Assembly: GCA_015061295.1 (NCBI GenBank)
Contig: SUWU01000021.1
Span: 1 to 41,997 of the forward strand
Length of the DNA: 41,997 bases
Source of the DNA: Lentimicrobiaceae bacterium
Lineage (GTDB): Bacteria > Bacteroidota > Bacteroidia > Bacteroidales > F082
Direction: 5' to 3'
Shown: positions 5,535 through 40,015 of the stretch, one piece after another
How the letters are laid out: the number at the start of each line of letters is the position of its first letter
How positions within the stretch are numbered: the stretch's first letter is position 1
Notes under the pieces: model-generated
The model's input: the letters and a program-made list of their open reading frames with translations, nothing else
What the model was told of the DNA's origin: nothing
The model's database searches: none
Program-made: the position numbers and the translations under genes

Positions 5535-5611
5535 ATTGTTAATTATTCATTGTTCATTGTACATTGTTAATTGTACATTGTTAATTGTACATTGTTAATT
5601 GTACATTGTAC
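5535..5611 (-). repeat. period-7 tandem array (11 heptads) after the S9 peptidase gene
   Basis: Read on the minus strand, starting one base after the TAA stop, eleven consecutive 7-mers are GTACAAT, GTACAAT, TAACAAT, GTACAAT, TAACAAT, GTACAAT, TAACAAT, GTACAAT, GAACAAT, GAATAAT, TAACAAT. The middle part also reads as a 14-bp tandem repeat. This is the longest of the period-7 arrays in the window. Confidence 0.9.
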
Positions 5612-5612
5612 A

Positions 5613-7685
5613 TTACTTCAAATAAGTGTCAAGCCAATTGAAGAATCTTCTTTGCCATAAGATACCGTTCTGTGCTTGAAGCACCCAGTGATTTTCATCT
5701 GGGAAATATAAGAACTCTGCTGGTATTCCTCTCAAGACAGCTGCGTTGTAAGCCTGCATACCTTGAGTATAAGCGATGCGGTAATCCTTAGCGCCATGAA
5801 TGACTAAGATAGGAGCTGTCCATTTATCTACGAATTTATGCGGTGAGTTGGCATACGACCATTGTACCACAGGATTGTCTTTCTCCCAGAAAGGACCGCC
5901 TAAGTCCCAATTGACAAACCACATCTCTTCTGTTTCAAGATATTGCGACTCGAAATTGAACATGCCATCGTGAGCTATCAAAGCCTTGAAACGTCCTTCG
6001 TGATGACCAGCCAACCAGAATACAGAGAAGCCTCCGAAACTTGCGCCGACAGCACCGAGTCTGTTCTCATCAATGAAAGGCTCTTTTGCCAAAGCGTCTA
6101 TAGCCGAGAGATAATCTTTCATACATTGTCCGCCGTAGTCGCCACTGATTGCCTCGCACCATTCCTGTCCGAAGCCTGGCAAGCCTCTACGGTTTGGAGC
6201 GACAACGATATAATCGTTAGCTGCCATCATCTGGAAATTCCAACGATATGACCAGAACTGACTTACTGTGCTTTGAGGTCCGCCTTCACAATAGAGCAGG
6301 GCAGGATATTTTTTGTTTTTATCGAAATGTGGAGGATATATTACCCATGTCAACATTCTCTTTCCATCGGTTGTCTCAATCCAGCGTTCTTCAACATTAC
6401 CCATTGTCAACTGATTGAAGATATTGTCGTTGACAGTCGTAAGTTGTTTCGCTTCGCCGCTTTGTGGATCAACGATATATAATTCGGTAGGACGCGACAT
6501 CGACTGACGAGCTGCTACTAACTTATCGCCAGCCCATGCGATACCTATGTAATTATGTTTGCCTTCTGTTATCTTTCTGATGCTACCAGTGCTGAGACTT
6601 AAAGCGTAAATCTGATCTGTCGCATTACGGTCGCTGATGAAATAAATTGATTGTCCGTCAGGAGCCCAGAGGAGATGAGTGGCGTTTTGGTCGAAGCCTA
6701 TAGAATAATCTTTTTTCTCGCCTGTCGTCAAATCCATTACGAAGAGACGTTGCTTGTCGGCTTCATAACCATCACGTTCCATACTTTCCCAAGCAATCTT
6801 GTCGCCTTGTGGAGAAACGACGACATTCATATCATAACCCATCATGCCTTCGGTAAGATTCTTACATTCGCCTGTTGGAATGTTATACTGATAAATGTCG
6901 GTATTGGTTGAAGTTGCATAATCTTTTCCTACTTTCTTTCTTGAAGAATAAAGAATGTTTTGTCCGTCCTTAGTCCATGCAATCTGTTCCATGCCGCCCC
7001 ATGGTCTCACAGGAGCTTCCCACATTTCACCTTCCATAATATCTAAATTGACTTTGCCATTATCTGAAGTCACGAAGATGTGACTGTAGGTGTCAACCCA
7101 TTGATCCCAATGACGATACATCAAATCGTTGTTTACTCTTCCGGAAGAAAGCGGAAGGTCTGGATAGATGTCTGCTACATTGTCTTTGAGTTTAACTTCA
7201 GCAATAAATAAAAGCTGCGACTCATCAGGAGAATACTTAAAACCATTGACGCCGCCTTCTACGAAGCTGACTTGTTTTCTCTCGCTGCCGTCAGGATTCA
7301 TTTCCCAAACCTGCATCTCGCCACTGTCGGCACACATAAACAAAATCTTAGATCCGTCCTTATTCCATGTAGGACTCAACTCGTTAGCAAAAGATTTCGT
7401 GAGACATCTGTTGTTGTTACCGTCGATGTCGATGATGTAGATGTCGGTCTTGCTTTTATTTTCAGCTATATTAAAATAGGTGAGGTTGTAAACGACATGT
7501 TTGCCATCAGGTGAGACAGCATATTCGCCGAGGCGGTTCATCGACCAGAGCGCTTCAGGCGTCATGATGTCGGAGTTTAGAATGATGTCTTGAGGCGGAG
7601 TGTAAGCAGTCTCTTTCTCGGACTTCTCTCCGCATGAGGCTAATGATAAAGCAACTAATGCCATGATAATTAGATTTTTTCTCAT
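5613..7685 (-). CDS. S9 family peptidase lipoprotein (DPP5-like)
   Basis: 690 residues. The lipoprotein signal is MRKNLIIMALVALSLASC (Cys18). Residues about 45-430 form a WD40-like beta-propeller with TolB-type repeats (YSPDESQLLFIA, WAPDGQSIYFIS), and the C-terminal ~250 residues are the prolyl-oligopeptidase hydrolase domain. Catalytic residues visible: Ser549 in GASFGGF, Asp634 in HGAKDYRI and His666 in DENHWV. Domain order, length and the GAVGASFGGFSVFWLAGHH segment resemble dipeptidyl-peptidase 5 of Bacteroidales, which releases dipeptides from oligopeptides in the periplasm. It is a monocistronic gene with a TATCTTTG -7 box upstream and an 11-unit heptad array directly after the stop codon. 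Confidence 0.9.
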   Translation of the reverse strand: MRKNLIIMALVALSLASCGEKSEKETAYTPPQDIILNSDIMTPEALWSMNRLGEYAVSPDGKHVVYNLTYFNIAENKSKTDIYIIDIDGNNNRCLTKSFANELSPTWNKDGSKILFMCADSGEMQVWEMNPDGSERKQVSFVEGGVNGFKYSPDESQLLFIAEVKLKDNVADIYPDLPLSSGRVNNDLMYRHWDQWVDTYSHIFVTSDNGKVNLDIMEGEMWEAPVRPWGGMEQIAWTKDGQNILYSSRKKVGKDYATSTNTDIYQYNIPTGECKNLTEGMMGYDMNVVVSPQGDKIAWESMERDGYEADKQRLFVMDLTTGEKKDYSIGFDQNATHLLWAPDGQSIYFISDRNATDQIYALSLSTGSIRKITEGKHNYIGIAWAGDKLVAARQSMSRPTELYIVDPQSGEAKQLTTVNDNIFNQLTMGNVEERWIETTDGKRMLTWVIYPPHFDKNKKYPALLYCEGGPQSTVSQFWSYRWNFQMMAANDYIVVAPNRRGLPGFGQEWCEAISGDYGGQCMKDYLSAIDALAKEPFIDENRLGAVGASFGGFSVFWLAGHHEGRFKALIAHDGMFNFESQYLETEEMWFVNWDLGGPFWEKDNPVVQWSYANSPHKFVDKWTAPILVIHGAKDYRIAYTQGMQAYNAAVLRGIPAEFLYFPDENHWVLQAQNGILWQRRFFNWLDTYLK

Positions 7686-7731
7686 AATGATATTTTTAAT
7701 AAAACTTTAATTTTATATATGAAATGATAGG

Positions 7732-7739
7732 CAAAGATA
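7732..7739 (-). promoter_or_regulatory. -7 box for the S9 peptidase gene
   Basis: Minus-strand TATCTTTG fits TAnnTTTG, about 46 nt before the start at 7685. It is divergent from the Fic gene promoter 14 bases away. Confidence 0.6.
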
Positions 7740-7752
7740 ATGATTTTATTAT

Positions 7753-7760
7753 TAAATTTG
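7753..7760 (+). promoter_or_regulatory. -7 box for the Fic gene
   Basis: TAAATTTG fits TAnnTTTG, 25 nt before the ATG at 7786. Confidence 0.55.
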
Positions 7761-7785
7761 TAATCTAAACTTTTAATATAAATCC

Positions 7786-8823
7786 ATGAGCAAAATGAAT
7801 GAAACAACGTATGTTCCGCCTTTTACGGTGACAGCAAATGCAATTAATTTGGTTGCAGAAATATCTGCTTTAATAGAACGATATGCAATAAGATTGGAGA
7901 AAGTTGACGGATTACGTCTGCGTAAAGTCAATCGTATCAAGACTATTCATAGTTCACTGGCAATTGAAGGTAACAAACTTTCAGAAGATCAAGTTAGAGA
8001 TATTATTGACGGAAAGAATGTTATTGCTCCTCTTCGTGAGATTCAAGAAGTTAAAAATGCGATTAAGACTTATGAGCTTTACCCTACATTGAATCCTTTT
8101 AATATTAAAGATTTACTGAAAGCTCATGGCGTGATGATGACTTCACTAACAAATGATGCAGGAAAATTTAGGCAAGGTGGAGTTGGTGTATTTGAAGGGA
8201 AAAGATGTGTCCATTTAGCACCTCCGGCACAACGAGTTCCAATTCTAATCTCAGAATTATTTGAATGGTTAAAGAAATCCAAAGATCATCTGTTGATCCG
8301 TAGTTGTGTTTTTCATTTTGAATTTGAATTTATTCATCCATTTTCTGATGGCAATGGTAGAATGGGACGCTTATGGCAATCTCTGATATTAGGAAAATTG
8401 AATCCTATTTTTGAATATCTTCCTATTGAAAATATGGTGTATGCTAATCAACAAAAGTATTATGATGCAATAAGTAAAAGTACTAAACTCAATGATTCTT
8501 ATCCATTTATTGATTTTATGCTTGGTGAAATTCTTAATACTTTAGAAAAATATATTGACACTAAAACAGAGGCTAAAATTCCTAATAAAATTCCTAATAA
8601 AATTCCTAATAAATTACTGAAAGAGCATCAGGAGTTCTCTGATGTTACTTGGAATGTTTTATCTCAAATTATTGGAAATCCAAATATTACTTCTAATGAA
8701 ATGAGTGCTATTTTAGGTATAGGAGACAGAATGATAAGGAATCATATTAAGATACTACGCGATGCTGGTATAATTCAACGTGTTGGAAGCAATAAAAAAG
8801 GTCACTGGGAAGTCTTGAAATAA
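7786..8823 (+). CDS. Fic family protein (class II, N-terminal inhibitory helix) with C-terminal winged helix
   Basis: 345 residues. The Fic core motif HPFSDGNGRMGR is complete, with catalytic His184, so transfer of AMP (or another phosphate-containing group) to protein hydroxyls is chemically possible. The N-terminal part carries the inhibitory motif (S/T)xxxE(G/N) as SLAIEG (Ser57, Glu61, Gly62), which marks class II Fic proteins that are auto-inhibited. The C-terminal ~65 residues (NPNITSNEMSAILGIGDRMIRNHIKILRDAG) form a winged helix-turn-helix. The two parts are joined by a linker made of three IPNK units (about residues 264-276), encoded by a 12-bp tandem repeat. The target is unknown; proteins of this build often regulate themselves or a neighbour. 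It has its own promoter and no visible antitoxin gene, consistent with built-in inhibition. Confidence 0.9.
   Translation: MSKMNETTYVPPFTVTANAINLVAEISALIERYAIRLEKVDGLRLRKVNRIKTIHSSLAIEGNKLSEDQVRDIIDGKNVIAPLREIQEVKNAIKTYELYPTLNPFNIKDLLKAHGVMMTSLTNDAGKFRQGGVGVFEGKRCVHLAPPAQRVPILISELFEWLKKSKDHLLIRSCVFHFEFEFIHPFSDGNGRMGRLWQSLILGKLNPIFEYLPIENMVYANQQKYYDAISKSTKLNDSYPFIDFMLGEILNTLEKYIDTKTEAKIPNKIPNKIPNKLLKEHQEFSDVTWNVLSQIIGNPNITSNEMSAILGIGDRMIRNHIKILRDAGIIQRVGSNKKGHWEVLK
8575..8610 (+). repeat. 12-bp in-frame tandem repeat in the Fic linker
   Basis: Three perfect copies of AAAATTCCTAAT (8575-8586, 8587-8598, 8599-8610) encode the repeated KIPN linker. Changes in copy number would keep the frame and change only linker length. 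Confidence 0.95.
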
Positions 8824-8847
8824 AATCTTAAAATCTAATGACACTCG

Positions 8848-8877
8848 TTTCTCATCAGCCTACTTTTATTATATTTG
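8848..8877 (+). promoter_or_regulatory. promoter of the PNGase F-like gene
   Basis: -7 box TATATTTG (8870-8877) with a -33-like TTTC (8848-8851), 18-nt spacer. The box lies downstream of an in-frame ATG at 8838, which argues that the real start is the ATG at 8895. Confidence 0.6.
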
Positions 8878-8894
8878 CAGAAAAAATATCATTC

Positions 8895-10586
8895 ATGAGA
8901 AAACTTATATTATCACTGTTATTTGTAACATTTTTATTGACTGCTAACGCACAGCAGCGTCTTGTTTATCAAATGTACGTTTTGGGTTCTACCGATGGCG
9001 ATACTACTTTCGTGGAAGTGAAACGCTCTGGAAATCAGCTGAAGATACAAGATATTAACGAGTTCGATGGTCAGCTTATTCCTGGAATATCTACCGATAT
9101 AACGTATGTCGATTATTCGCAAGACTCTGCTTTCTTCCAAATGTCTTATTCCGATGGCGATGAATATTTCTGTTCTTTCCCTCTGAAAAACAACAACGTG
9201 ACTTTCACCGAAGAAGGCGAGGAGATGATGAATGGATATAAATGCAAGAAATATCGTACGAGCATTAATTCCAATACCATCGAGGTGTGGATGACAGAGA
9301 CTCTCGGATATAACGCAACACCAAGTATCAGTCGTGGCGCATTAAACGGTGTGATGATAAAACAGCTCATCAACGGCAACAGAGTCTTCGAGTTAAAAAA
9401 TATTAAGAAAGACAGAAAACTGAAGAATGAAATCATACCCGACAATCTTGGAACTCGCGTCTCTGCTCAAGACATCGACAAAATCTCTAAAGAGAAACTG
9501 ATAATCAGAGTGCCTGTCTTTGATGAAGAACAAATTAACTTCGCTGAGATAGAGAAATTCCAAGGCGAGATTCCTTACGACAGTGTAATTCGTTTTGCAT
9601 ACGGAACATTGATCTTAAAGAAAATTAACTTACAAAATCTTCCAGAACATTATTCATATTTCATCGAGGTGGAACAACAGTCTAATGGCGATGCTTACGA
9701 CCGCTCAGGTTCTATATTCGTCATTCCTACCGAAAGAGAATTAAGTTTAAAAGACGCTTTGATTGATAGCATTCAGCTGCTTCATTCATATACCGACAGA
9801 AGAGACATCACATACAGAGCTATCAAGTTGGAAGACGACTTCCTTCCTGTGGTCGAACTGATGCGTTTCTTTACTCCATTCGGCGTAAATCATTATAACA
9901 ATGCTGTTTATATCGACGGATTGGAATGGCATGACGTGGCGTATTATAAACAAGATGTCACCGACGTGAGCAAGCATCTTCGTGGCGATGTCCTTATTGG
10001 AGCTTTCATCGGTAATTATGATGGCGGCGGACATAAGCTTAGTTTAGATGTCGTCGCATATCCAAGCGATTATTCTTGGGATTTAAGTCAGAACGACGAC
10101 TGGACTTTGCCTTTGTTCAACACATGCAACGTGATGGAAATGGCAGGTCAGCATTATGGAAGAATGTTTAAGACCGACAGCCTCACCGTAGAATTTGAAG
10201 TGCCTGAGAATGTCAGCGATTTAAGACTTAGATATATCAGCACCGGTCACGGTGGATGGGGCGGAGGCGATGAGTTCAACCCTAAGGAAAATACTATCAT
10301 CATCGACGGTGAGAAAGTATTTACTCACACTCCATGGCGTTGTGACTGCGCTACTTACAGAGAATATAATCCAGCATCAGGTAACTTCTGGAATGGAACT
10401 TCGTCTTCCGATTTATCACGTTCAGGCTGGTGCCCTGGAACAGCAACACAACCTGTATATTTCGACTTGTCATTCCTAAAACCAGGAAAACATACTATCA
10501 CGATAGCAATACCACAAGGCGAAGATGTAGGAAGTAGCTTCAACCACTGGATGGTATCGGGGATATTATTAGGAATTAACAATTAA
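8895..10586 (+). CDS. secreted PNGase F-type peptide-N-glycosidase with GLPGLI/DUF4412-like N-terminal domain
   Basis: 563 residues from the ATG at 8895, chosen because a signal peptide (MRKLILSLLFVTFLLTANAQ) starts there and the -7 promoter box overlaps the earlier in-frame ATG at 8838. About residues 21-170 resemble GLPGLI/DUF4412 proteins (IEVWMTETLGYN...). The C-terminal ~330 residues match the two jelly-roll domains of PNGase F: DVTDVSKHLRGDVLIGAFIGNY, then LRYISTGHGGWGGGDEF, TPWRCDCATYREYNPASGNF and SSSDLSRSGWCPGT. PNGase F cleaves N-glycans from asparagine, releasing the glycan and leaving aspartate. The signal peptide has no lipobox, so the product is periplasmic or exported. The GH20 lipoprotein at 14737 could act on the released glycans. 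Its last codons and stop come from a period-7 array (stop 10584-10586). Confidence 0.85.
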   Translation: MRKLILSLLFVTFLLTANAQQRLVYQMYVLGSTDGDTTFVEVKRSGNQLKIQDINEFDGQLIPGISTDITYVDYSQDSAFFQMSYSDGDEYFCSFPLKNNNVTFTEEGEEMMNGYKCKKYRTSINSNTIEVWMTETLGYNATPSISRGALNGVMIKQLINGNRVFELKNIKKDRKLKNEIIPDNLGTRVSAQDIDKISKEKLIIRVPVFDEEQINFAEIEKFQGEIPYDSVIRFAYGTLILKKINLQNLPEHYSYFIEVEQQSNGDAYDRSGSIFVIPTERELSLKDALIDSIQLLHSYTDRRDITYRAIKLEDDFLPVVELMRFFTPFGVNHYNNAVYIDGLEWHDVAYYKQDVTDVSKHLRGDVLIGAFIGNYDGGGHKLSLDVVAYPSDYSWDLSQNDDWTLPLFNTCNVMEMAGQHYGRMFKTDSLTVEFEVPENVSDLRLRYISTGHGGWGGGDEFNPKENTIIIDGEKVFTHTPWRCDCATYREYNPASGNFWNGTSSSDLSRSGWCPGTATQPVYFDLSFLKPGKHTITIAIPQGEDVGSSFNHWMVSGILLGINN

Positions 10587-10604
10587 CAATTAACAATTGA
10601 CAAT
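10577..10604 (+). repeat. period-7 array at the end of the PNGase F-like gene
   Basis: Four heptads in phase: TAACAAT x3 and TGACAAT. The gene's stop codon TAA is the first three bases of the second unit, and the final residues Ile-Asn-Asn are encoded at the array edge. Confidence 0.9.
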
Positions 10605-10625
10605 TAAGGACTTATTGACTTAAAA

Positions 10626-11756
10626 ATGAAGATTGCGGTTAATACACGATTGTTGCTTAAAGATAAGTTGGAAGGCATCGGCTGGGTGGCTTACGAATGT
10701 CTGCGCCGCATGGTGAAGTCGCATCCTGAGGTGAAGTTTTATTTCATCTTCGACAGGAAACCCGATGAGAGATTTATCTTCGCTGAGAACGTAAAACCTG
10801 TAGTACTTTTCCCGCAGGCTCGTCATCCTTTTTTATATATAGCATTCTTCGAGTTCGCAGTGGCGCGTTTCCTCCGTAAGTTAAAACCTGATTTATACCT
10901 TTCGACTGACGGATATTTAAGTCTGAGAAGTAAGACCAAACAGATAGCTGTATTTCACGATCTTAACTTCGAACATTTCCCTCAGGATTTTCCCAAGATT
11001 CATCTCTGGCATTACAAGAAATATTTTCCGAAATATGCAAAGAAAGCCGATCGTATCATCACGGTTTCTGAGTTTTCAAAGAAAGATATCTGTGAATGTT
11101 ACGGCATAAATCCAGATAAGATTGAGGTGGCTTATAATGGAGCTAACGAGATTTTTTCTCCTTTAAGTGAAGACGTTAAGATAAATATTAGAAATCAATA
11201 TTCTGAAGGCAAGCCTTATTTTATGTTTGTAGGTTCCCTGCATCCGCGTAAGAACCTCGCTCGACTTTTCACTGCTTTCGATTTATTTAAGAAGAAAAAC
11301 GATAACGACATAAAGCTCGTCATTGTCGGTAATAAGAAGTGGTGGACTGAGCCGATTAAGAACGCTTATGATGCTATGACACATAAAGACGATGTGATTT
11401 TTGTTGGAAGATTATCGGCAGAGGATTTGCGTTTTGTCACAGCAGCTGCGTTAGCATCGGTTTATGTCTCTTATTTTGAAGGCTTTGGTATTCCTATCGT
11501 AGAGGCTTTCAAGTGCGACACGCCTGTCATCACTTCCAATGTGACATCAATGCCAGAGGTGTCTGCCGACGCCGCGCTGCTCGTAGATCCTTTCAGTGTT
11601 GAGTCGATAGCCGATGCTATGGAAAAAATATTAGACGAAGAAGTGCGTAATGAACTGATAGAGAAGGGCAGGAGAAGAAGAGAAGATTTCTCGTGGGATA
11701 AAGCTGCAGAAAAATGGTGGAAAGTAATTGAGACACAAGGTCGCAAAGACATATAG
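10626..11756 (+). CDS. GT4-family glycosyltransferase
   Basis: 376 residues, GT-B fold, family 4-like. The N-terminal Rossmann half starts MKIAVNTRLL with a nearby GIGWV loop. The C-terminal half has FMFVGSLHPRKNLARL (donor-binding start), VIVGNKKWW, the conserved FVGRLSAEDL turn and the E-x7-E motif as EGFGIPIVE (about 288-296). These are typical of retaining nucleotide-sugar-dependent glycosyltransferases that act at the cytoplasmic side of the membrane on lipid-linked or polysaccharide acceptors. Donor and acceptor cannot be told from the sequence. It stands alone rather than in a polysaccharide cluster, lying 39 bases after the PNGase F-like gene, so co-transcription is possible. A period-8 array follows before purD. 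Confidence 0.85.
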   Translation: MKIAVNTRLLLKDKLEGIGWVAYECLRRMVKSHPEVKFYFIFDRKPDERFIFAENVKPVVLFPQARHPFLYIAFFEFAVARFLRKLKPDLYLSTDGYLSLRSKTKQIAVFHDLNFEHFPQDFPKIHLWHYKKYFPKYAKKADRIITVSEFSKKDICECYGINPDKIEVAYNGANEIFSPLSEDVKINIRNQYSEGKPYFMFVGSLHPRKNLARLFTAFDLFKKKNDNDIKLVIVGNKKWWTEPIKNAYDAMTHKDDVIFVGRLSAEDLRFVTAAALASVYVSYFEGFGIPIVEAFKCDTPVITSNVTSMPEVSADAALLVDPFSVESIADAMEKILDEEVRNELIEKGRRRREDFSWDKAAEKWWKVIETQGRKDI

Positions 11757-11766
11757 AATTATAAAC

Positions 11767-11798
11767 TCGTTGACATGATGACTCGTTGACATGTTGAC
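11767..11798 (+). repeat. period-8 array between the glycosyltransferase and purD
   Basis: Four octads in phase: TCGTTGAC, ATGATGAC, TCGTTGAC, ATGTTGAC, followed by TTTAAAAATAG and the purD ATG. Every unit contains TGA on the sense strand. Confidence 0.9.
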
Positions 11799-11813
11799 TT
11801 TAAAAATAGAATT

Positions 11814-13097
11814 ATGAACGTATTAGTATTAGGTTCCGGTGGTCGCGAATATGCTTTGGCATGGAAGATCGCTCAAAGTAAATCTGTTAATAAAATCTAC
11901 ATCGCTCCAGGTAACGCTGGCACAGATGCTATTGGCGAAAATATAAATATCAATATCGCTGATTTTAATATTGTAAAAGATACAGTCTTGAAACTCAATA
12001 TCGACATGGTCGTTGTCGGTCCTGAGCAGCCACTCGTTGACGGCATCGTCGATTTCTTTAAAAATGATAATGAGTTAAAAAATATTAAGAGTATCGGTCC
12101 AGACAAGAAAGGCGCTCAGCTCGAAGGCAGCAAGGCTTTTGCTAAGACTTTCATGGAGAAATATAATGTCCCGACAGCTTCTTGTTTCACAGTGACTTCA
12201 TCTAATCTTGAAGAAGGATTGAAATATCTCGAGACACAGAAAGCTCCTTACGTACTCAAAGCCGATGGTCTCGCAGCTGGCAAAGGCGTTCTCATCATCG
12301 AATCGTTGGAAGAAGCTCAGAACGAGTTGCAAGACATGCTCTCTGGCAAGTTCGGTTCCGCATCAGCAAAAGTCGTCATCGAGACTTTCTTGAAAGGCAT
12401 TGAGGTCTCTATGTTCGTGCTGACCGACGGCGAGCATTATGTGGTGCTTCCTGAAGCTAAAGATTATAAACGTATAGGCGATGGCGACACAGGTCTTAAC
12501 ACAGGCGGCATGGGCGCTGTTTCTCCAGTTCCTTTTGTGACAAAAGACTTCGTCAATAAGGTAGAAGAAAGAATCATAAAACCTACAATTCAAGGACTTA
12601 AAGAAGAAAAGATCGACTATAAAGGATTTATCTTCATCGGCTTGATGAACGTCGATGGCGACCCATACGTCATTGAATATAATGTGAGAATGGGCGACCC
12701 TGAGACAGAAGGCGTCATGACGCGCATCGACTCCGACTTATTAGAATTACTCGATGCCTGCGCTCAAGGCAGACTCAACGAAGTGGATTATAAGACATCG
12801 CCAAATACTTCTGTGACAGTGATGTTAGTATCAGGCGGCTATCCTGAAGATTATAAGAAAGGCATGGTGATGACAGGCTTCGATGAACTTTCAGAAGATT
12901 GTATCATAGCTCATGCTGGAACGAAACTCAACGATAAAGGCGAGGTCGTGACATCAGGAGGTCGCGTCATCGCGGTGACAGCTCACGGAAAAAATATCGA
13001 GGAAGCTCGTAACAAGGCTTACCTTAACGTTGAGAAGATCAAGTTTGAGGGTGTCAACTATCGTCACGATATAGGTTTAGATCTTATGAAATTCTAA
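11814..13097 (+). CDS. purD: phosphoribosylamine--glycine ligase (GARS)
   Basis: 427 residues, the usual length for PurD. It catalyses ATP-dependent joining of glycine to phosphoribosylamine, the second step of de novo purine synthesis in the cytoplasm. Visible signatures: N-terminal MNVLVLGSGGREYALAWK, the VVVGPEQPLVDGI turn, the ATP-grasp region KADGLAAGKGVLI (about 148-160), GDGDTGLNTGGMGAVSP, the metal/ATP-binding EYNVRMGDPETE (about 287-298), and a C-terminal GARS domain with GYPEDYKKG. No residues look missing. The downstream membrane protein gene starts one base after its stop, so purD heads a short purD-DUF6427-rnhB transcription unit. A period-8 array sits just upstream of the start; no TAnnTTTG promoter is obvious there. 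Confidence 0.97.
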   Translation: MNVLVLGSGGREYALAWKIAQSKSVNKIYIAPGNAGTDAIGENININIADFNIVKDTVLKLNIDMVVVGPEQPLVDGIVDFFKNDNELKNIKSIGPDKKGAQLEGSKAFAKTFMEKYNVPTASCFTVTSSNLEEGLKYLETQKAPYVLKADGLAAGKGVLIIESLEEAQNELQDMLSGKFGSASAKVVIETFLKGIEVSMFVLTDGEHYVVLPEAKDYKRIGDGDTGLNTGGMGAVSPVPFVTKDFVNKVEERIIKPTIQGLKEEKIDYKGFIFIGLMNVDGDPYVIEYNVRMGDPETEGVMTRIDSDLLELLDACAQGRLNEVDYKTSPNTSVTVMLVSGGYPEDYKKGMVMTGFDELSEDCIIAHAGTKLNDKGEVVTSGGRVIAVTAHGKNIEEARNKAYLNVEKIKFEGVNYRHDIGLDLMKF

Positions 13098-13098
13098 G

Positions 13099-20020: not shown

Positions 20021-20052
20021 GTCACCAAGTCACCAAGACAACGAGTCAACTA
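20021..20052 (-). repeat. period-8 array upstream of tex
   Basis: On the minus strand four octads read TAGTTGAC, TCGTTGTC, TTGGTGAC, TTGGTGAC, followed by TTAAAATA and the tex start. It runs into the heptad array that begins at the aroE stop. Confidence 0.9.
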
Positions 20053-20083
20053 TTAACTATAAATTATTCATTATTCATTGTTC
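20049..20083 (-). repeat. period-7 array at the end of aroE
   Basis: On the minus strand five heptads: GAACAAT, GAATAAT, GAATAAT, TTATAGT, TAATAGT. The last aroE codons (Glu-Gln-stop) are inside the first units. Confidence 0.9.
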
Positions 20084-20827
20084 ATTCTCCCAAATCTTCC
20101 ATGCAGCTTCAGCTTGTTCGTGAAGCATTGTCAATCCGTTGAAAGTAGCGGCTCCTTTCTGACGAGCTTTCTTCAAGAATAATGTCTCTTCAGGATTATA
20201 AATCAAATCAATGAAAATGTTATGAGGTTCAACAGTAGAGTAGGGAAGTTCTAAACATTCATTAATATTTGGATACATACCCACAGGCGTCGTATTAATC
20301 ACTAATGAATAAGGTGAGAAACCTGTTTTATCAACATCATCATAACCAATTATTTCTAATTCCTCGTTCCTGATTTTTAATTTATTACGACTTACAACTT
20401 TAAACGGGATATTATTTTTTCTTAACACATATTGCACCGCCTTCGATGCTCCGCCACTGCCAAATATCAAACTCGTTGTCTTGTAGTCTTGTAGTCTTGT
20501 TGACTCTAATAACACTTCAAATCCGATGACGTCGGTGTTAAAACCTTTTAACTTTCCGCCTTCATAAACTTTCACTGTATTAACGGCACCGACTTCTTCA
20601 GCAATATCATCAATATCATCAAGATATTTAATAATACTCTCTTTATAAGGGACAGTAACGTTAAATCCTTTTAACTCTTTGTTATTACGAACAAACTCGA
20701 TAATATCACTTATCTCATCAAGTTCGATGTTGCTGTACGAATGACTGAGATTAAGTTTTGAAAACTTATTCATGAAATATTCCTTCGAAAAAGAATGACC
20801 TAATTTCTTACCAAGTAATCCGTACAT
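20075..20827 (-). CDS. aroE: shikimate dehydrogenase
   Basis: 250 residues, slightly short of the usual ~270. It reduces 3-dehydroshikimate to shikimate with NADPH in aromatic amino acid synthesis. Visible: MYGLLGKKLGHSFSKEYF (shikimate-binding Ser-x-Ser replaced by SFSK), the substrate loop GFNVTVPYKE with catalytic Lys, GAVNTV, GFNTDVIGFE, then the Rossmann GSGGASKAVQYVLRK and INTTPVGMYPN, and the closing GLTMLHEQAEAAWKIW. Between GFNTDVIGFE and the GSGGAS motif the linker STRLQDYKTTS is encoded by four period-8 units (20473-20504). The final residues ENEQ are encoded by the period-7 array at the 3' end. It sits in the minus-strand group after the DUF368 gene and before tex. Confidence 0.95.
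   Translation of the reverse strand: MYGLLGKKLGHSFSKEYFMNKFSKLNLSHSYSNIELDEISDIIEFVRNNKELKGFNVTVPYKESIIKYLDDIDDIAEEVGAVNTVKVYEGGKLKGFNTDVIGFEVLLESTRLQDYKTTSLIFGSGGASKAVQYVLRKNNIPFKVVSRNKLKIRNEELEIIGYDDVDKTGFSPYSLVINTTPVGMYPNINECLELPYSTVEPHNIFIDLIYNPEETLFLKKARQKGAATFNGLTMLHEQAEAAWKIWENEQ
20473..20504 (-). repeat. intragenic period-8 array in aroE
   Basis: On the plus strand four octads read TCGTTGTC, TTGTAGTC, TTGTAGTC, TTGTTGAC; on the coding (minus) strand they are GTCAACAA, GACTACAA, GACTACAA, GACAACGA. This is the same octad family as the intergenic arrays at 11767, 20021 and 37722, but in the stop-free orientation. Confidence 0.9.
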
Positions 20828-24701: not shown

Positions 24702-24962
24702 ATGTCAAGCATCAGGAACAAAAGAAAACCTCGTCGTCGGAGCTATAAATATCATTCGGTGACCTTCAAGTTGACTTCTGGACAGTATAAATCCTTGAAG
24801 AATTATTGCAAGGCGAGAAAGACCACACCGATAAAACTCATTAAAAGAAGCATCGAAAGATTTACTTCGCACTACGAATACGAAGTTCCTGCCGAGTTAT
24901 ATCTCACAGAAAATCAATTAAATCTTTTTGATCTTGAACAGTTGACAATGAATAATGAATAG
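24702..24962 (+). CDS. small basic protein of unknown function
   Basis: 86 residues. The N-terminal 15 are very basic (RNKRKPRRRSYKYH), followed by a beta-like stretch VTFKLTSGQYKSLKNYCK and a helix TPIKLIKRSIERF; the C-terminal quarter is acidic and aliphatic (ENQLNLFDLEQL). A 'V.FKLT..QY.SLK.YC..R..TP.KLIK..I' pattern resembles ribbon-helix-helix proteins, so nucleic-acid binding is possible, but I do not recognise a named family. It follows the phosphosugar mutase on the same strand across a hairpin. The last residues (TMNNE, stop TAG) are encoded by a period-7 array, so the native C-terminus may have been altered by the repeat. Confidence 0.7.
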   Translation: MSSIRNKRKPRRRSYKYHSVTFKLTSGQYKSLKNYCKARKTTPIKLIKRSIERFTSHYEYEVPAELYLTENQLNLFDLEQLTMNNE

Positions 24963-24970
24963 TTAATAGT
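24943..24970 (+). repeat. period-7 array at the end of the small basic protein gene
   Basis: Four heptads: TGACAAT, GAATAAT, GAATAGT, TAATAGT. Ten bases later a second array on the opposite strand ends recR, so the two converging genes both finish in such arrays. Confidence 0.9.
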
Positions 24971-24979
24971 TGCTCGATC

Positions 24980-25000
24980 ATTATTCATTATACATTATTA
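24980..25000 (-). repeat. period-7 array at the end of recR
   Basis: On the minus strand three heptads: TAATAAT, GTATAAT, GAATAAT. They encode the last recR residues Asn-Asn-Val and the stop TAA. Confidence 0.8.
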
Positions 25001-26808: not shown

Positions 26809-27741
26809 TTAAAAATACAGCCAATGCCAAGTGAAATCGCCATTAGTGTCAAGCATTACCGCTGGCATCGGGAATTTTATGAAACTTAGAACCTTTAACG
26901 TCGTCTTTAGAAATTTATTGTTTACAGGGATTCTTGTCAGGTCAATATCTGGGGAAAGGACGAACTGTCGTGTTCTTGTAAACTCAGGAATTGTTTTACC
27001 ATTATGTGCCAATGTATTGTCGAATGCTCCTGTCATTCCGTCGCCGCTATAACCCAAGGCGACGTTTATCCAAGAAGGAAATCTGCTTTCGTTGCTCATG
27101 AATAAAGATTTGATATTGAAAGAGAGCCATATTGTCTGTCCGTTATAATCTTTTAACATCCTTTCTGGAAGATTGCTTCCGAGCAGGTCGGGACGATATT
27201 GAGCGTATTGAGTGTGATGATACGAGTATTTCATAGATATTCTCTGTTCGTGCCAGAGAGCTTGCTGTCCCATAAACAATCCTGTTCCGAAAGCGTTGGC
27301 AGCGATGTCGCCCCACGAGAAGCCCCATCCGTCGGATAATCCATCGAAGACCTCTACTGTCGTTAGAAATATGAAGCCGATGGGACCGCCGTAGAGAATG
27401 GAGCGCTTTTCGTCACAGCCGGCGAGACGTAAGGCTTCGTAGCCCATGAGACCTACATGATATGACGACATGGAGTGACCTGCCTTATCCATCTGAAGCC
27501 ATTCTGCATTGTCGTTATAAAAATGAAACGACGACTGAGGATAACCGGCATACCAGAGATAATAGAGCCCTGTCATGGAGCCTACATAAAGAGCCGCTTC
27601 TGTGCCAAGGACAATGCCGACGTTTCGTTTTACATTTAGCTGTTGATTGTTGTCTATAGGCTGTTGTCTATAGGCTGTTGTCTGTTGGCTTCTAACATTC
27701 AACGATAAGAATATCAATATTATTAGGATTGTTTTTTTCAT
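26809..27741 (-). CDS. DUF2279 envelope protein
   Basis: 310 residues with signal peptide MKKTILIILIFLSLNVRSQ. The DUF2279 (YfiM-like) core is seen as AEWLQMDKAGHSMSSYHVG (about 83-101), GGPIGFIFLTTVEVFDGLSDGWGFSWGDIAANAFGTGLF and the ending NGDFTWHWLYF. The family is a set of predicted periplasmic/outer-membrane proteins with conserved His and Asp/Glu, function unknown. Residues just after the signal (about 19-37, QQTTAYRQQPIDNNQQLN) are encoded by an eight-unit period-7 array and look like a low-complexity insertion. It overlaps the mltG stop by 4 bases (ATGA), so it is translationally coupled to mltG. Confidence 0.8.
   Translation of the reverse strand: MKKTILIILIFLSLNVRSQQTTAYRQQPIDNNQQLNVKRNVGIVLGTEAALYVGSMTGLYYLWYAGYPQSSFHFYNDNAEWLQMDKAGHSMSSYHVGLMGYEALRLAGCDEKRSILYGGPIGFIFLTTVEVFDGLSDGWGFSWGDIAANAFGTGLFMGQQALWHEQRISMKYSYHHTQYAQYRPDLLGSNLPERMLKDYNGQTIWLSFNIKSLFMSNESRFPSWINVALGYSGDGMTGAFDNTLAHNGKTIPEFTRTRQFVLSPDIDLTRIPVNNKFLKTTLKVLSFIKFPMPAVMLDTNGDFTWHWLYF
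27635..27690 (-). repeat. intragenic period-7 array in the DUF2279 gene
   Basis: On the coding (minus) strand eight heptads in perfect phase: AGCCAAC, AGACAAC, AGCCTAT, AGACAAC, AGCCTAT, AGACAAC, AATCAAC, AGCTAAA. Eight units (56 nt) are not a multiple of three, yet the frame stays open through them. Confidence 0.95.
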
Positions 27742-31813: not shown

Positions 31814-31860
31814 AATGAACTTTTTGGATTATGTGTTGTTAGACTAAAGGAGAATGTAAA

Positions 31861-32727: not shown

Positions 32728-32755
32728 GCCATCATTTCTCAATATATGACTTGAC

Positions 32756-32796: not shown

Positions 32797-32824
32797 TGTA
32801 AATTTATAAAAACAATTGAGATAA

Positions 32825-34540
<1,716 letters not shown>

Positions 34541-34553
34541 AATTTAGAAATTC

Positions 34554-36479: not shown

Positions 36480-36507
36480 AAATAGTTAATGGTTAATAAT
36501 TAATAGT
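36480..36507 (+). repeat. period-7 array after yidC
   Basis: Four heptads immediately after the stop: AAATAGT, TAATGGT, TAATAAT, TAATAGT. The terminator hairpin starts 3 bases later. Confidence 0.75.
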
Positions 36508-36510
36508 TAT

Positions 36511-36546
36511 AGAGACGTTACATTATATTGTGGCGTCTCTTTTTTT
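36511..36546 (+). terminator. yidC terminator built on a GAGACG inverted repeat
   Basis: AGAGACGTTACA (36511-36522) pairs with TGTGGCGTCTCT (36529-36540) using two U-G pairs valid in the plus-strand RNA, loop TTATAT, followed by T7. The arms belong to the same GAGACG/CGTCTC family as the repeats at 887, 38947 and 41790. Confidence 0.85.
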
Positions 36547-36577
36547 GCTATTAGCCATTAGCTTTTGGCTATTGGCT
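36543..36577 (-). repeat. period-7 array (AGCYAAT type) at the end of the second ABC permease gene
   Basis: On the minus strand five heptads: AGCCAAT, AGCCAAA, AGCTAAT, GGCTAAT, AGCAAAA, preceded by the octad GTCAACGA. They encode the last permease residues (Pro-Ile-Ala-Lys-Ser) and the stop TAA. Confidence 0.85.
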
Positions 36578-37712
36578 CGTTGACTTTTTTATGTCTCCAT
36601 ATCAATGTAGCTATTACGAAATAAACCACACATTGAATCCATAATGTTATCATCTCAGGAGATGCATTAGATAAGTCGCCTCCCATACAATCGATTTTTA
36701 CAAATGCCATGGTTGCTGGTGCTACAGGAATGAGATAATGGAAAATCTTCCAATGCCATGGCATTAGTTCCAAAGGATAGGAAATACCTGTCAGAAAGAC
36801 CAATGGCACCGACATGAAGACGATGAGAAACAAGGGCATGTCGGCGTCGGTGAAAAATGGCTTCAAACACATACAGAAAAATGCCGATGCAAAGAGATAT
36901 GGTATCATCATGATGGCGATGTCCCAGAAATTACCGAGATGAGGAAGATGAAATATCAACGGTAGCAAGCCTAAGAAGAAAACCGAGAATACGATATAAA
37001 TCATGACGTTGGTGATCGCTTTGCCGAGAACGATTTTATATGACTTATTGACTATTGGTCTTGTGGTCTTGTTGACTGTTTCTCCTCCAATCCTCATCGC
37101 CATCGTTATCATCATGGTCTGGAAAATGATAATCACCATCACTGGCGGAATGAGGTACGTGCCGTACCCCTCTGTGCTGTTGTACAAAGGCTCACTCACA
37201 ATATTGACAGCCTTGTCATTTGCTAAAAATAAGACATCAATCATGTTGAGAGATTTTATCATCTCTGGAAGTAATTCGCTGTTAATCTTTAATGAAGCAA
37301 AATTAACAGCTTCTGATATGTTGAGATAATCTAAAAATGAAAGTGTTGAGCCGTAAATGGTACATTCTGTCTGTTCACCGCGCATGATGTTGTTTCTCAA
37401 ATCGGAAGGAATATAAAGAAAACCTATTATCTCTCTTTCTTTTAATTTTTGCTTCGCATGATGAAAATCCTGAGTCTTCATGACGACATCGACCTGTTGT
37501 GTTGCATCAATATAGTCGATGAAATGACGGCTTACATCACTTTGCGACATATCGACAACAGCGATAGGTGCTTCGCGATAGACGTTGGTATTATACATCA
37601 GATTATATAAAAATCCGTAGCCAACATTGCCAAGGATCAATACGATAAGAATCGGAATGTTGGTTCCAATCGCCTTAAATTCAGAGCATATTATTTTGAT
37701 GATGTCGTTCAT
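36558..37712 (-). CDS. ABC-2 family transporter permease
   Basis: 384 residues, YhhJ/YadH-like ABC-2 membrane subunit. It has one N-terminal helix (IPILIVLILGNVGYGFLYNLMY), a ~150-residue extracytoplasmic domain starting REAPIAVVDMSQSDVSRHFIDYIDATQQV, and five C-terminal helices, including YGTYLIPPVMVIIIFQTMMITMAM and LFLIVFMSVPLVFLTGISYPLELMPWHWKIFHYLIP. These proteins form, with a partner and an ATPase, exporters coupled to HlyD and TolC. It is the last gene of the TolC-HlyD-permease-permease operon. The C-terminal VNEPIAKS is encoded by repeat units. Confidence 0.9.
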   Translation of the reverse strand: MNDIIKIICSEFKAIGTNIPILIVLILGNVGYGFLYNLMYNTNVYREAPIAVVDMSQSDVSRHFIDYIDATQQVDVVMKTQDFHHAKQKLKEREIIGFLYIPSDLRNNIMRGEQTECTIYGSTLSFLDYLNISEAVNFASLKINSELLPEMIKSLNMIDVLFLANDKAVNIVSEPLYNSTEGYGTYLIPPVMVIIIFQTMMITMAMRIGGETVNKTTRPIVNKSYKIVLGKAITNVMIYIVFSVFFLGLLPLIFHLPHLGNFWDIAIMMIPYLFASAFFCMCLKPFFTDADMPLFLIVFMSVPLVFLTGISYPLELMPWHWKIFHYLIPVAPATMAFVKIDCMGGDLSNASPEMITLWIQCVVYFVIATLIWRHKKVNEPIAKS

Positions 37713-37721
37713 TATTTTTAA

Positions 37722-37745
37722 GTCTACAAGTCAACGAGTCAATAA
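37722..37745 (-). repeat. period-8 array between the two permease genes
   Basis: On the minus strand three octads: TTATTGAC, TCGTTGAC, TTGTAGAC, then TTAAAAAT and the next ATG. The upstream permease's stop TGA is inside the first unit. Confidence 0.9.
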
Positions 37746-38926
37746 GTTATGAGATGTTTGTGATTTTTCATTCTTAATTTCAAAAGTAATGTCGCTATTA
37801 TTATCAATAGGTTAAAAGAAATTAATATTATAAGTGATTTCCAATAAAAATTAAAGGCGTGACTTTCATAGCGAAGGTAGTCGGTGATTACGACGAAGTG
37901 TCGGATAGGGAAGAGGAAAGAGAGTTTTTCGAAGATAGGGTACATCGCGTTAACGGGGAAAGTCACGCCAGCAAAAGTGGCTCCCAACGAGCCGAACATC
38001 GAGATGAAACTGATGATAATCGGCAGGTTGGGATATATAGAGAAAAGGAATATTGAAACTGAACATGTCGCCATAATGAAAAGAATACAAATGATAATTA
38101 GCATAAAGACATTTGAGCTGAGATTGAAATCCATGAAGTTAAACATCAGTATATTGGCAAATATGGCGATGATGGAAAATATTATGACATAAGGGAATAG
38201 TTTTCCTAAAATTAGATTAATAAAATTATTGTTGCTTATTTTCAGACATTCTCTAATCTTATCTTTGTCATTGAAATCGTTGCCGAAAGAATAAGCTATG
38301 TTGAGCAGAATTAATATTTGGAACAGAACCCAGAAATAAGGAAACGTAAGATATGCGGAATAATTCAGTGATGGGTTATAAAGAGGATGCGACAGTATGC
38401 TTATTGGCGATGCCAATGTCTCTAATGTCTCGTTATTGATGCCAAGGAAGTCGGTTGTTTCTTTTAAAGGAGTGACAGCTATTATTCTTAACGCTTTGAG
38501 AAAACCTTGCATTACTTCGGAGCCGACACTTAGAAAAGCGTAGTGATAACATAAAGTCAGAGTAGTGTTTCTATTTGCCATGACATCATCCTGAAAATTA
38601 GATGGAATGATGAGGTAGCCGTATATTTCTTTTGAGAGGAGGGCGTCGCGAGCCTCGGCGGTGTTAGAGAATCTTTCTATAACAGAGATTTCAGGCACCG
38701 CCGAGCAGAGCCTCCCTATGTTACGAGACATTTCACTTTCATCTTCATCGACGATACCGACAGGAATACTATCAATCATGCCGTCGCCAAAAATAGTAGT
38801 CATGAAAAATAATGCAAACAACGGAAATATCACAACAGTGAAGAGATAGAGAGGCCTCGATACCAAGATTTTACATTCTCTCTTTACGATAGCAAATAAT
38901 CCACTATGATGTTTTACATTTATCAT
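37739..38926 (-). CDS. ABC-2 family transporter permease (first of two)
   Basis: About 395 residues from the ATG at 38926. An earlier in-frame ATG at 38953 lies inside a GACGCATCAATG repeat arm that is non-coding elsewhere in the window, and the shorter start places the first helix at the usual distance, so 38926 is preferred; the longer form is possible. It has an N-terminal helix (LYLFTVVIFPLFALFFMTTIF), a large extracytoplasmic domain (IPVGIVDEDESEMSRNIGRLCSA...), and five C-terminal helices ending with LIILISFNLLIIIATLLLKL. It is similar in layout to the next permease, so the two likely form a heterodimer. The stop codon lies in a period-8 array. Confidence 0.88.
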   Translation of the reverse strand: MINVKHHSGLFAIVKRECKILVSRPLYLFTVVIFPLFALFFMTTIFGDGMIDSIPVGIVDEDESEMSRNIGRLCSAVPEISVIERFSNTAEARDALLSKEIYGYLIIPSNFQDDVMANRNTTLTLCYHYAFLSVGSEVMQGFLKALRIIAVTPLKETTDFLGINNETLETLASPISILSHPLYNPSLNYSAYLTFPYFWVLFQILILLNIAYSFGNDFNDKDKIRECLKISNNNFINLILGKLFPYVIIFSIIAIFANILMFNFMDFNLSSNVFMLIIICILFIMATCSVSIFLFSIYPNLPIIISFISMFGSLGATFAGVTFPVNAMYPIFEKLSFLFPIRHFVVITDYLRYESHAFNFYWKSLIILISFNLLIIIATLLLKLRMKNHKHLITY

Positions 38927-38946
38927 CAGATATTTTTCATTATTTA

Positions 38947-38961
38947 GACGCATCAATGTTT
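38947..38961. repeat. half of a GAGACG-family repeat upstream of the first permease
   Basis: GACGCATCAATGTTT is identical to 41839-41853. It may be a remnant of the inverted repeat found at 41790-41853. Confidence 0.5.
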
Positions 38962-38995
38962 GTTTATATTTATGGTATCATTGATATGTCTTTAC

Positions 38996-39023
38996 ATTGT
39001 CAACTGTTAATTGTCAATTGTCA
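38996..39023 (-). repeat. period-7 array at the end of the HlyD gene
   Basis: On the minus strand four heptads: TGACAAT, TGACAAT, TAACAGT, TGACAAT. They encode the last residues Thr-Ile-Asp-Asn and the stop TAA. Confidence 0.9.
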
Positions 39024-39996
39024 TCAAACATGTCATTCCTGGTCGTAAATCATTGATTTTTATCGTAGGGATGGCTTGTATTTCAAATGTCTTTAAGTCG
39101 TAGCCTCCGCTGTCTTTGGTAGCTTTCCATGTAGCGAAGCTGCCGAGAGGGGCGATGTAGTTAATTGTAAAAGAAACATCTTTCAACGCGAGAGCGGGAA
39201 TGTCGCATGATATTATTTCACCTATCTTAAAATTTTTTAACAGATCTTCACGTATATTTATGACGAGATAAGGATTTTCAATATCTATAATTGTCATGAT
39301 AGAAGTTCCTATCGAAGATAGCTCGCCTTCATTCAATGCAATAGTGGCTACTTCACCCGAGATAGGTGATATAAGTTTCGAGTCGTTAAGCAGTGCTTTT
39401 ACTACCTCACTGTTGCTTTTAGCAGCTGATGCCATTGCCTTTGCAGAAGCCTTGTCTTGTTCCTGAGCGCCTTCGATGGCTATCTGATATTGATAGTAGG
39501 CTGCGCGTTCAGCAGCTAAAGCTGATTTATAAATCGCCTCGACTTCGTCTCGGCGCTGAAGACTCACAATAGAATCCTCGTAAAGAGTCTTAATCCTCTC
39601 ATATGTGGTCTTGGCTAATCTCAAATCGGCCTTAGCTCCGTCCCATAACTCTTTGGCAATAGAAATCAACTGCTTACGTGATCCAGCATCAATCTTCTCA
39701 CTCTGAAGTGATGCGACACTTTCTAAGGACTTCTGCGCTTCATATTCTGCTAACATTTCGCGAGAAATGATATGAACCAAAGTGTCGCCTTTCTCCACAC
39801 GCTCGCCTTTTTTGACATAAATATCCTCAATACGTCCTGGAAGTAAACCAGAAATGTTATATTCTTCTGCTTCAATCTGACCTTGTACGATGATGTCTTT
39901 ATCCCTCATCAAGAAGATGCCAAGAATTGATAAAGTTAATATTGTTAATAATATTACAGCAAAAGAAATAAATAATATCTTATTCGTCGTTTTCAT
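39007..39996 (-). CDS. HlyD-family membrane fusion protein
   Basis: 329 residues. One N-terminal membrane helix (ILFISFAVILLTILTLSILGIFLM) is followed by a lipoyl-like half-motif (IVQGQIEAEEYNISGLLPGRIEDIYVKKGERVEKGDTLVHI), a long helical hairpin (about 75-200, rich in Ala, Lys, Glu and Ser), the second lipoyl half (LISPISGEVATIALNEGELSSIGTSIMTII) and a beta-barrel domain. It links the inner-membrane pump to TolC in the periplasm. It lies between tolC and the permeases. Its start codon overlaps a period-7 array that ends tolC, and its own last codons are in another array. Confidence 0.93.
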   Translation of the reverse strand: MKTTNKILFISFAVILLTILTLSILGIFLMRDKDIIVQGQIEAEEYNISGLLPGRIEDIYVKKGERVEKGDTLVHIISREMLAEYEAQKSLESVASLQSEKIDAGSRKQLISIAKELWDGAKADLRLAKTTYERIKTLYEDSIVSLQRRDEVEAIYKSALAAERAAYYQYQIAIEGAQEQDKASAKAMASAAKSNSEVVKALLNDSKLISPISGEVATIALNEGELSSIGTSIMTIIDIENPYLVINIREDLLKNFKIGEIISCDIPALALKDVSFTINYIAPLGSFATWKATKDSGGYDLKTFEIQAIPTIKINDLRPGMTCLMTIDN

Positions 39997-40015
39997 TGTT
40001 TATTATTCATTATTC
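39995..40015 (-). repeat. period-7 array across the tolC stop and the HlyD start
   Basis: On the minus strand three heptads: GAATAAT, GAATAAT, AAACAAT. They carry the tolC stop TAA (40012-40010) and run up to the ATG of the HlyD gene. Confidence 0.8.

Follow-up and report, generated by a model that had tools for sequence, protein, structure and literature searches.

Short tandem arrays with units of 7 or 8 nucleotides (nt) lie at the 3' ends of genes in a 41,997-nt stretch of DNA from a Lentimicrobiaceae bacterium (the window; contig C44 of assembly G000, 2.10 Mb in 63 contigs), and the question raised by this locus is why they are there. The original prediction was that such arrays put stop codons into all frames and could thereby insulate gene ends against readthrough or frameshifts. 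Our analyses lead to a different reading: on balance, the arrays are probably dispersing repeats of the heptamer-repeat kind, which use species-specific words, lie mainly at or just past native stops, and change over time both in the number of copies and in the word. This reading builds on the direct observation of period specificity, stop-codon focus, native protein ends, species-specific word "dialects", word swaps at orthologous gene ends, a codon-tied orientation, and adjacency to a stem-loop element.

Tandem arrays at the gene ends of the window

Arrays in the window were located with Tandem Repeats Finder (TRF) and by scoring periods 4–12 for each array. Genes, among them a PNGase F-like gene, purD, tex, aroE, recR, and yidC, were predicted with a purpose-written gene caller. 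All 13 arrays of the original prediction were recovered in place, and in each case the period assigned to them was the best among 4–12. They are given here together with an in-frame array in aroE and a stem-loop that adjoins one of them:

5534..5614, minus strand: heptamer array GTACAAT/TAACAAT/GAACAAT at the stop of an S9 peptidase gene (TRF, re-measured)
10568..10605, plus strand: heptamer array TAACAAT/TGACAAT across the stop (10586) of the PNGase F-like gene
11767..11798, plus strand: octamer array TCGTTGAC/ATGTTGAC, 10 nt past a glycosyltransferase stop, ahead of purD
20021..20052, minus strand: octamer array GTGACTTG/GTTGACTC, 22 nt past the aroE stop, ahead of tex
20048..20086, minus strand: heptamer array GAACAAT/GAATAAT/TAATAGT across the aroE stop (20075)
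20472..20500, minus strand: in-frame octamer array within a length-variable AroE loop
24620..24654, plus strand: heptamer array TAATAGT/TTATAGT across the stop (24639) of a phosphoglucomutase/phosphomannomutase gene
24943..24971, plus strand: heptamer array GAATAAT/TAATAGT across the stop (24962) of a small open reading frame (ORF), 24702-24962
24978..25000, minus strand: heptamer array TAATAATGTATAATGAATAAT across the recR stop (24988), inverted relative to the array at 24943..24971
36480..36509, plus strand: heptamer array TTAATAG/TTAATGG immediately past the yidC stop
36510..36541, plus strand: stem-loop TAGAGACG...CGTCTC with a T run, terminator-like, flush with the array at 36480..36509
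36543..36577, minus strand: heptamer array AGCCAAT/GGCTAAT across the stop (36558) of an ABC-2 permease gene
37722..37745, minus strand: octamer array TTGACTCG/TTGACTTG across the stop (37739) of an ABC-2 permease gene
38996..39023, minus strand: heptamer array TGACAAT/TTAACAG across the stop (39007) of an HlyD-like gene
39992..40018, minus strand: heptamer array GAATAAT/AAACAAT across the stop (40010) of an outer membrane efflux-type gene

The arrays had been described as lying directly at stop codons. This is true of all 10 heptamer arrays, which touch or cross a stop with a gap of 0–1 nt; it is true of one of the three octamer arrays, which crosses the stop at 37739, and not of the other two, which lie 10 and 22 nt past theirs. 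Stops in all three sense frames are present in eight of the 10 heptamer arrays and in two of the three octamer arrays. At a score of at least 11, the window contains six arrays of period 7, three of period 8, and one each of periods 9 and 12, and 50 segment-wise dinucleotide shuffles give an expectation of 0.02–0.08 per period. The AroE loop with the in-frame octamers carries other octamer or heptamer arrays in some relatives. Beyond the arrays that had been listed before, in-gene octamers are present at 20472-20500 and also at 40654-40674.

Period specificity and focus on stop codons

A scan of the wider genome against shuffled DNA, which the original prediction had proposed as a check, showed that periods 6–8 far exceed the shuffles. 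In 400 kb outside the window, periods 6, 7, and 8 gave 21, 37, and 28 arrays at a score of at least 13, periods 4 and 5 gave none, and period 9 gave three; periods 12 and 14, multiples of 6 and 7, gave 18 and 29. Five dinucleotide shuffles of these 400 kb, made from coding and intergenic pieces, yielded at most 0.2 arrays at the same score. Period-6 arrays (GACAAT, GTCAGA, and similar words, which often encode DNDNDN or SQSQSQ) numbered 50 at a score of at least 12 in a wider scan of 770 kb of G000 (37% of the genome), and 0–1 in the sampled stretches of each of six congeners.

Placement at gene 3' ends is strongly supported by this wider scan. Of 87 period-7 arrays, 71 are not contained within a gene; 33 overlap a stop and three overlap a start. 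In the gaps between co-directional genes, 43 of 53 period-7 arrays are closer to the stop than to the start; the median distance is 0 nt for the stop and 64 nt for the start. When each co-directional array with room was randomly re-placed within its own gap and those with a 5' edge by position +7 of the stop were counted, 12.4 heptamer arrays were expected in G000, and 32 of 49 were observed. Six congeners pooled gave 34 of 80 against 15.0 expected, with P values from 0.002 to 0.08 for single congeners. The octamer arrays behave in the same way: in G000, 3.7 of 16 were expected and 8 observed (P 0.013), and in the other genomes 2.8 of 21 were expected and 6 observed (P 0.05).

The proportion of gene ends touched by an array is 75/597 in G000, 16/191 in G027, 23/261 in G009 and G070 together, 25/130 in G076 and G084 together, and 11/161 in G011. 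The density of heptamer arrays is of the same order across species of the genus: 88 in 770 kb of G000, 24 in 179 kb of G009, 20 in 170 kb of G070, 33 in 146 kb of G076, and 13 in 200 kb of G011. The G000 totals of 87 (overlaps resolved) and 88 differ because the score thresholds vary between scans, from 8 to 13, and the densities in G027, G045, and G052 are inflated because the stretches used there were taken from contigs that matched TAACAAT. Arrays are also seen at or close to the ends of some contigs (G045:C79, G045:C80, and G000:C4; the array of G045:C79 reaches base 12524 of 12525), so they may break assemblies and be undercounted.

Repeat words differ between species and change at the same gene end

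Each species has its own repeat words, or dialects, as we found by counting words of three units with up to two mismatches in 60 whole genomes (35 congeners). TAACAAT is present at 206 places in G000, at 45 in G027, and at 0–2 in the remaining 34 congeners; the reversed control of this search is uninformative because TAACAAT reads the same backwards after rotation. GAATTAG occurs at one place in G000, and at 138 in G009, 153 in G027, 61 in G023, 12 in G008, 10 in G014, and 0–2 in the rest of the genus, with a reversed control of 0 in the genus. AAGTTTA occurs at seven places in G000, 54 in G009, and 53 in G035, with at most 4 for its reversed control within the genus, and TAACTGA at none in G000, 76 in G014, and 42 in G057, a member of another family. 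The octamer CTTGTTGA has 23 places in G000, 21 in G009, seven in G027, and four in G001. Completeness is 94% for G000 and 91% for G027.

Two side observations came from these counts. TAACAAT is re-used in scattered families outside the genus, with 105, 29, 18, and 8 places in four of them and 4, 1, and 1 in a further three. In the octamer search, the pattern used as reversed control (AGTTGTTC, i.e. TGAACAAC) resembles a genuine octamer family and was found in 25 of 35 congeners, at up to 51 places in G026, and at none in G000.

Orthologous junctions were compared between species; a comparison of related strains had been suggested. The window genes g14–g30 are syntenic in five congeners, the exceptions without a match being g14 and g15 in G070 and g21 in G084. 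An array begins by position +40 at 22 of the 99 orthologous gene ends examined. Words and presence differ between species, and no within-species variation was seen. One orthologous stop can bear different words in different species: at the aroE stop, words were found in three of six species, namely GAACAAT/GAATAAT in G000, GAATTAG/GAGTTAG in G084, and TAATTCA/TAATGCA in G076. The yidC end has a heptamer array in G000 and an octamer array in G009, and the recR end has arrays in four of six species. Within aroE, an in-frame heptamer block, seen as 33 nt in two alignment gaps, is present in G076 and missing from G084.

The proteins end where their orthologues end. We looked in G009, G027, and G084 for orthologues of 11 genes with a stop-crossing array; nine genes yielded orthologue alignments and two gave none. 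The resulting 21 alignments leave out two paralogue-like hits and one cut off at a contig end, and four weak matches among 31 initial ones were not used. In 16 of the 21 cases the two protein ends differ by no more than two residues, and therefore the arrays do not truncate these proteins. Two orthologues are longer by 4 residues; three are shorter by 8, 8, and 13, and here the array supplies an extra tail in the G000 protein. Insertion anywhere near the 3' end with truncation is thus rejected in this form, as no orthologue is longer by more than 4 either. Six of the 21 orthologues have their own, different array at the stop.

A stem-loop adjoins some of the arrays

Some arrays run on into GTAG and a hairpin, GAGACGYRTCAATG...CATTGAYRCGTCTC, of about 50 nt (the dispersed GTAGAGACG stem-loop). 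With a 17-nt pattern and one mismatch, 59 places were found in G000, 34 in G009, 67 in G027, one each in G014 and G034, and none in the 31 remaining congeners, and its reversed control had no match within the genus. Among the 36 genomes of the genus searched, the element is abundant only in G000, G009, and G027. An alignment of 30 of the 39 distinct copies shows pairing in 94% of the stem cells and a covariation score above all 500 shuffles, with changes on both sides in 2 of 14 pairs, which is not above shuffles, and with one pair open in 16 of the 30 copies. Two stem-loops of this kind are in the window, one of them being:

884..939, plus strand: dispersed GTAGAGACG stem-loop about 5 nt past a stop codon (879), without an array

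Association at gene ends was tested with the short pattern TAGRGACG within 150 nt. In G000, 10 gene ends have both array and pattern, 65 the array only, nine the pattern only, and 545 neither (odds ratio 9.3, p 1.2e-5). The corresponding counts in G009 are 4/10/5/106 (p 0.009; one of the four belongs to another element), and the association is not significant in G027 (1/12/5/170) or G011 (2/9/5/144). On the GTAG side of the stem-loop, a 7- or 8-mer array is flush in 10 of 22 cases in G000, 3 of 12 in G009, and 2 of 12 in G027, and 88 of 2400 random intergenic positions in G000 have such a flush array. The A-rich strand is the GTAG strand in 15 of 15 flush arrays. At three gene ends (L011:18750-18800, L030:8007-8057, and L030:15354-15404) an identical 51-nt stem-loop is joined on one side by the same heptamer array.

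A bolder possibility, which we consider rather unlikely, is that array and stem-loop form one replicating miniature element that lands on stop codons and carries its own 7- or 8-nt word in each lineage; in about one gene in 10 it would overwrite the final codons together with the stop and the 3' untranslated region (UTR).

Two further observations were made. Downstream of both L011:18750-18800 and L030:8007-8057 lies the start of a similar gene. Another dispersed sequence, AGTCCCGTTAGGGACGACAG...GGCAGGT...GAGCG, is present at four places (L204 and L193 of G009, L035 of G000).

Local slippage or copying between loci

Plain replication slippage, as in long simple sequence repeats, would have each array grow from its own local seed, the words reflecting the mutational bias of the species, without any spread. 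Among such repeats, heptamers are the most frequent class in the majority of genomes examined (Mrazek et al., 2007, as summarised in PMC4679880), and at one junction the lengths in G009 and G070 appear by eye to differ by 14 and 7 nt, which would be unit-sized steps, although automatic alignment splits the difference into gaps of 1 and 6. An array could conceivably also grow out of a single dialect unit that is in register with the stop, and dialect-like 7-mers are seen near some ends that lack arrays. However, at the array-less ends of G000, TAACAAT is outside the 12 commonest 7-mers that start at the stop, which reach down to 6/522, although similar 7-mers are found slightly further down and make local seeding possible. 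Slippage also does not predict the stop-codon focus, nor the identical array and stem-loop at three loci. Words that are found hundreds of times in one species and hardly at all in a close relative speak for copying from locus to locus, with slippage as a later step. We therefore regard purely local growth as unlikely.

Orientation follows the codons and not the stops

The arrays had been said to lie mostly in the same sense as the upstream gene. Summed over seven genomes and tallied by distance to the stop, heptamer arrays across the stop (−30..−4) have the A-rich strand in sense 51 times and the T-rich strand five times, so that the claim stands for the stop-crossing arrays; the ratio is 24 to 16 at the edge (−3..+7), and the bias is lost beyond +7 (40 to 35). 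Within genes, the A-rich strand is in sense in 30 heptamer arrays against two (one of the arrays ends at a stop) and in 21 octamer arrays against three, with two ties, and the encoded peptides are mostly hydrophilic (e.g. SQQPTAN, RLQDYKTT). Words of the TAACAAT family contain stops in all frames on both strands, and their A-rich strand is nevertheless in sense 16:0 when they cross a stop and 5:7 otherwise. Since the bias is tied to the coding strata and the TAACAAT family follows it, orientation tracks coding, not stops. Octamer arrays more than 60 nt past a stop have the T-rich strand in sense 14:0. In G076, five proteins of 677–763 residues share the octamer-encoded RLQDYKT(T/I) at 93–94% of their length, possibly as a linker ahead of a C-terminal domain.

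This orientation bears on the idea that the arrays owe their presence to selection for multi-frame stop cassettes, which would terminate readthrough or translation after a frameshift. Array-bearing genes do meet a stop in every frame sooner, with a median for the slowest frame of 22.5 nt versus 94.5 nt (n = 66 versus 528), and the arrays are at native stops. At the edge, heptamer arrays of G000 have stops in three frames in 12 of 17 cases in sense and in 4 of 17 in antisense, and among non-overlapping heptamer arrays of this genome sense stops exceed antisense stops 21:8, with four ties. In the six congeners, however, the edge values are 16 of 23 in sense and 14 of 23 in antisense, and the non-overlapping arrays sum to 23:22. 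A cassette would be expected to keep its sense orientation and its stops downstream of the stop codon as well, which the 40:35 beyond +7 does not bear out. Eight of 20 edge octamers (AAGTCAAC, AAGACTAC, and similar) have no sense stop, although all eight have at least one in antisense, and the arrays are patchy in orthologues, as the 22 of 99 gene ends show. An earlier test in eubacteria yielded no compelling sign that extra in-frame stops at the 3' end are selected for (PMC6764699). Insulation by stops in all frames, tested by orientation, by stop-less units, and by presence in orthologues, is accordingly not supported, and we consider it improbable. The stops in all frames are more probably a by-product of units that are AT-rich and whose length is not a multiple of 3.

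Transcript ends and transposase-driven elements

It could also be argued that array and stem-loop act in the 3' UTR and shape termination or the mRNA 3' end, the array being an unstructured spacer between ribosome and terminator or a binding site for a protein. The order of stop, array, and stem-loop would fit such a device, as would the covariation in the stem-loop. The 91 pairs of neighbouring arrays include 24 inverted and 18 direct ones; four of the eight inverted pairs in G000 lie between convergent genes, and folding is stronger at array-bearing convergent ends (median z −5.20, n = 15, versus −3.82, n = 63). Between co-directional genes, however, array ends are no more structured than others (median z −1.47 versus −1.43), and a terminator role for arrays alone was rejected on this ground. 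T runs within 100 nt are rarer at array ends (0.14 versus 0.43), perhaps because the arrays push them out of range, and the lack of an orientation bias away from the stop also speaks against this function. We thus give it little credence.

REP elements begin with GTAG, as does the dispersed extragenic hairpin described here, and mobilisation by a RAYT transposase, with the arrays as flanks of REP/REPIN-type elements, is nonetheless most improbable, as a search for Y1 transposases (Y1_Tnp) gave no match in G000 and G027, despite their 59 and 67 stem-loop matches, and one in G009, and as arrays are present in congeners without the stem-loop, such as G011; with no transposase found in G000, this candidate was set aside.

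A model of dispersal, and what speaks against it

In the reading that we prefer, dispersal of species-specific heptamer-type repeats, the arrays would constitute a genus-wide class of short tandem repeats with units of 7 or 8 nt, and in G000 also 6 nt, that settle chiefly on or just past native stops and less often in variable protein loops. New arrays would be seeded by copying from existing ones, possibly through template switching or conversion where a short stretch of homology, such as the stop codon, is available, and some may be seeded as a unit of array and stem-loop. Replication slippage would then lengthen them, and under purifying selection they would persist where they are least costly, oriented so as to encode a hydrophilic tail or linker. 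The stop focus may result from short homology to the stop codon, from low cost, or from both, and a benefit at the stop may contribute.

Several observations weigh against this model. Neither an empty site nor a polymorphism within a species was seen, the nearest relatives being about 92% identical in Tex. TTAACAA is the joint commonest 7-mer 15 nt downstream of array-less G000 stops (4/522), so that dialect-like 7-mers slightly downstream of such stops make local seeds possible. For 65 of 75 gene-end arrays in G000 there is no TAGRGACG within 150 nt, and near the gene-end arrays of G070, G076, and G084 the count is 0 of 32. Only three loci share array and stem-loop, and two of them have longer similar neighbourhoods, which the third does not. 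The transposase search described above yielded no candidate in G000, and sense stops exceed antisense stops 21:8 in this genome, though not in the six congeners. Finally, the stop focus exceeds what tolerance alone would need unless most of the 3' gap is constrained, so that a benefit at the stop is possible.

Relation to known repeats

The placement of the arrays had been thought to have no described equivalent in Bacteroidales. This is too strong, judging from a study of TAACTGA heptamers (MacGregor, 2015; PMC4679880), in which direct repeats of this word are described as sporadic between species in Beggiatoaceae, cyanobacteria, and five Bacteroidetes. Their stops in three frames were already noted there; they are mainly ahead of start codons, and some overlap ORF ends or, in Microcystis, lie between stop codons. 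The arrays described here are likewise intergenic heptamer arrays with three-frame stops in one orientation and a sporadic occurrence, and TAACTGA itself is the dialect of the congener G014 (76 places). G000 has mostly intergenic heptamers with three-frame stops (71 of 87 arrays not inside genes), has no TAACTGA, and does not place its arrays near the downstream start. The TAACTGA repeats differ in being mostly just upstream of starts, and not on or after stops, and in using one word, in place of many words of one period that change by species at the same gene end.

Our arrays also fit long simple sequence repeats, which have units of 5–11 nt, are longer than expected by chance, are dominated by heptamers, and are tolerated outside coding DNA (Mrazek et al., 2007, according to PMC4679880); stop focus, dialects, and a partner stem-loop are absent from the description as summarised there. 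Among the matches listed in the open-licence literature, there was no description of a stop-codon focus or of word dialects in Bacteroidales, the work of MacGregor (2015) being the nearest. The tandem repeats of archaeal Borgs closely resemble our arrays in their composition and in that they start within ORF ends (PMC9879509); in contrast, ours are in bacterial chromosomes, periods 7 and 8 dominate, and the same words recur at many loci. REPINs (PMC3116915) are similarly dispersed extragenic hairpins or palindromes, and the arrays differ from them in the tandem 7/8-mers beside the hairpin and in the absence of a RAYT candidate from G000.

Small dispersed hairpins in or beside tandem heptamers, the SDR elements, were reportedly described in Nostoc by Elhai and colleagues in 2008, with mobility through an RNA intermediate as one of their reported traits. 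The flush stem-loops of G000 (10/22), G009 (3/12), and G027 (2/12) resemble them in this arrangement and differ in sequence and host, with an element of about 50 nt here.

Other features of the window

The Tex protein of the window has its closest matches in uncultured Bacteroidales of herbivore guts (best 93%). A compound 7/14-mer repeat, likewise absent from the earlier list of arrays, is present at 27640-27687 near the start of a DUF2279 gene, and a Fic-domain gene contains a perfect 12-mer repeat, TAAAATTCCTAA, in 3.3 copies at 8574-8613. A tRNA gene lies at 41522-41595 on the minus strand; it was the only match in an Rfam search, which covered the window, and the hairpins of the window had no Rfam match.

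Implications

In genomes of this kind, a repeat may be the source of C-terminal residues and of the stop codon, and this should be considered when they are interpreted; likewise, a sense orientation and stops in several frames need not signify function. There is no settled account of why heptamer repeats in bacteria have a unit of 7, why they use given words, or how they spread. The genus offers species with a like density and placement and with different words, so that origin, spread, and selection become directly comparable. If array and stem-loop did form one replicating element, gene ends in this genus would evolve through the invasion and replacement of words rather than through point mutation.

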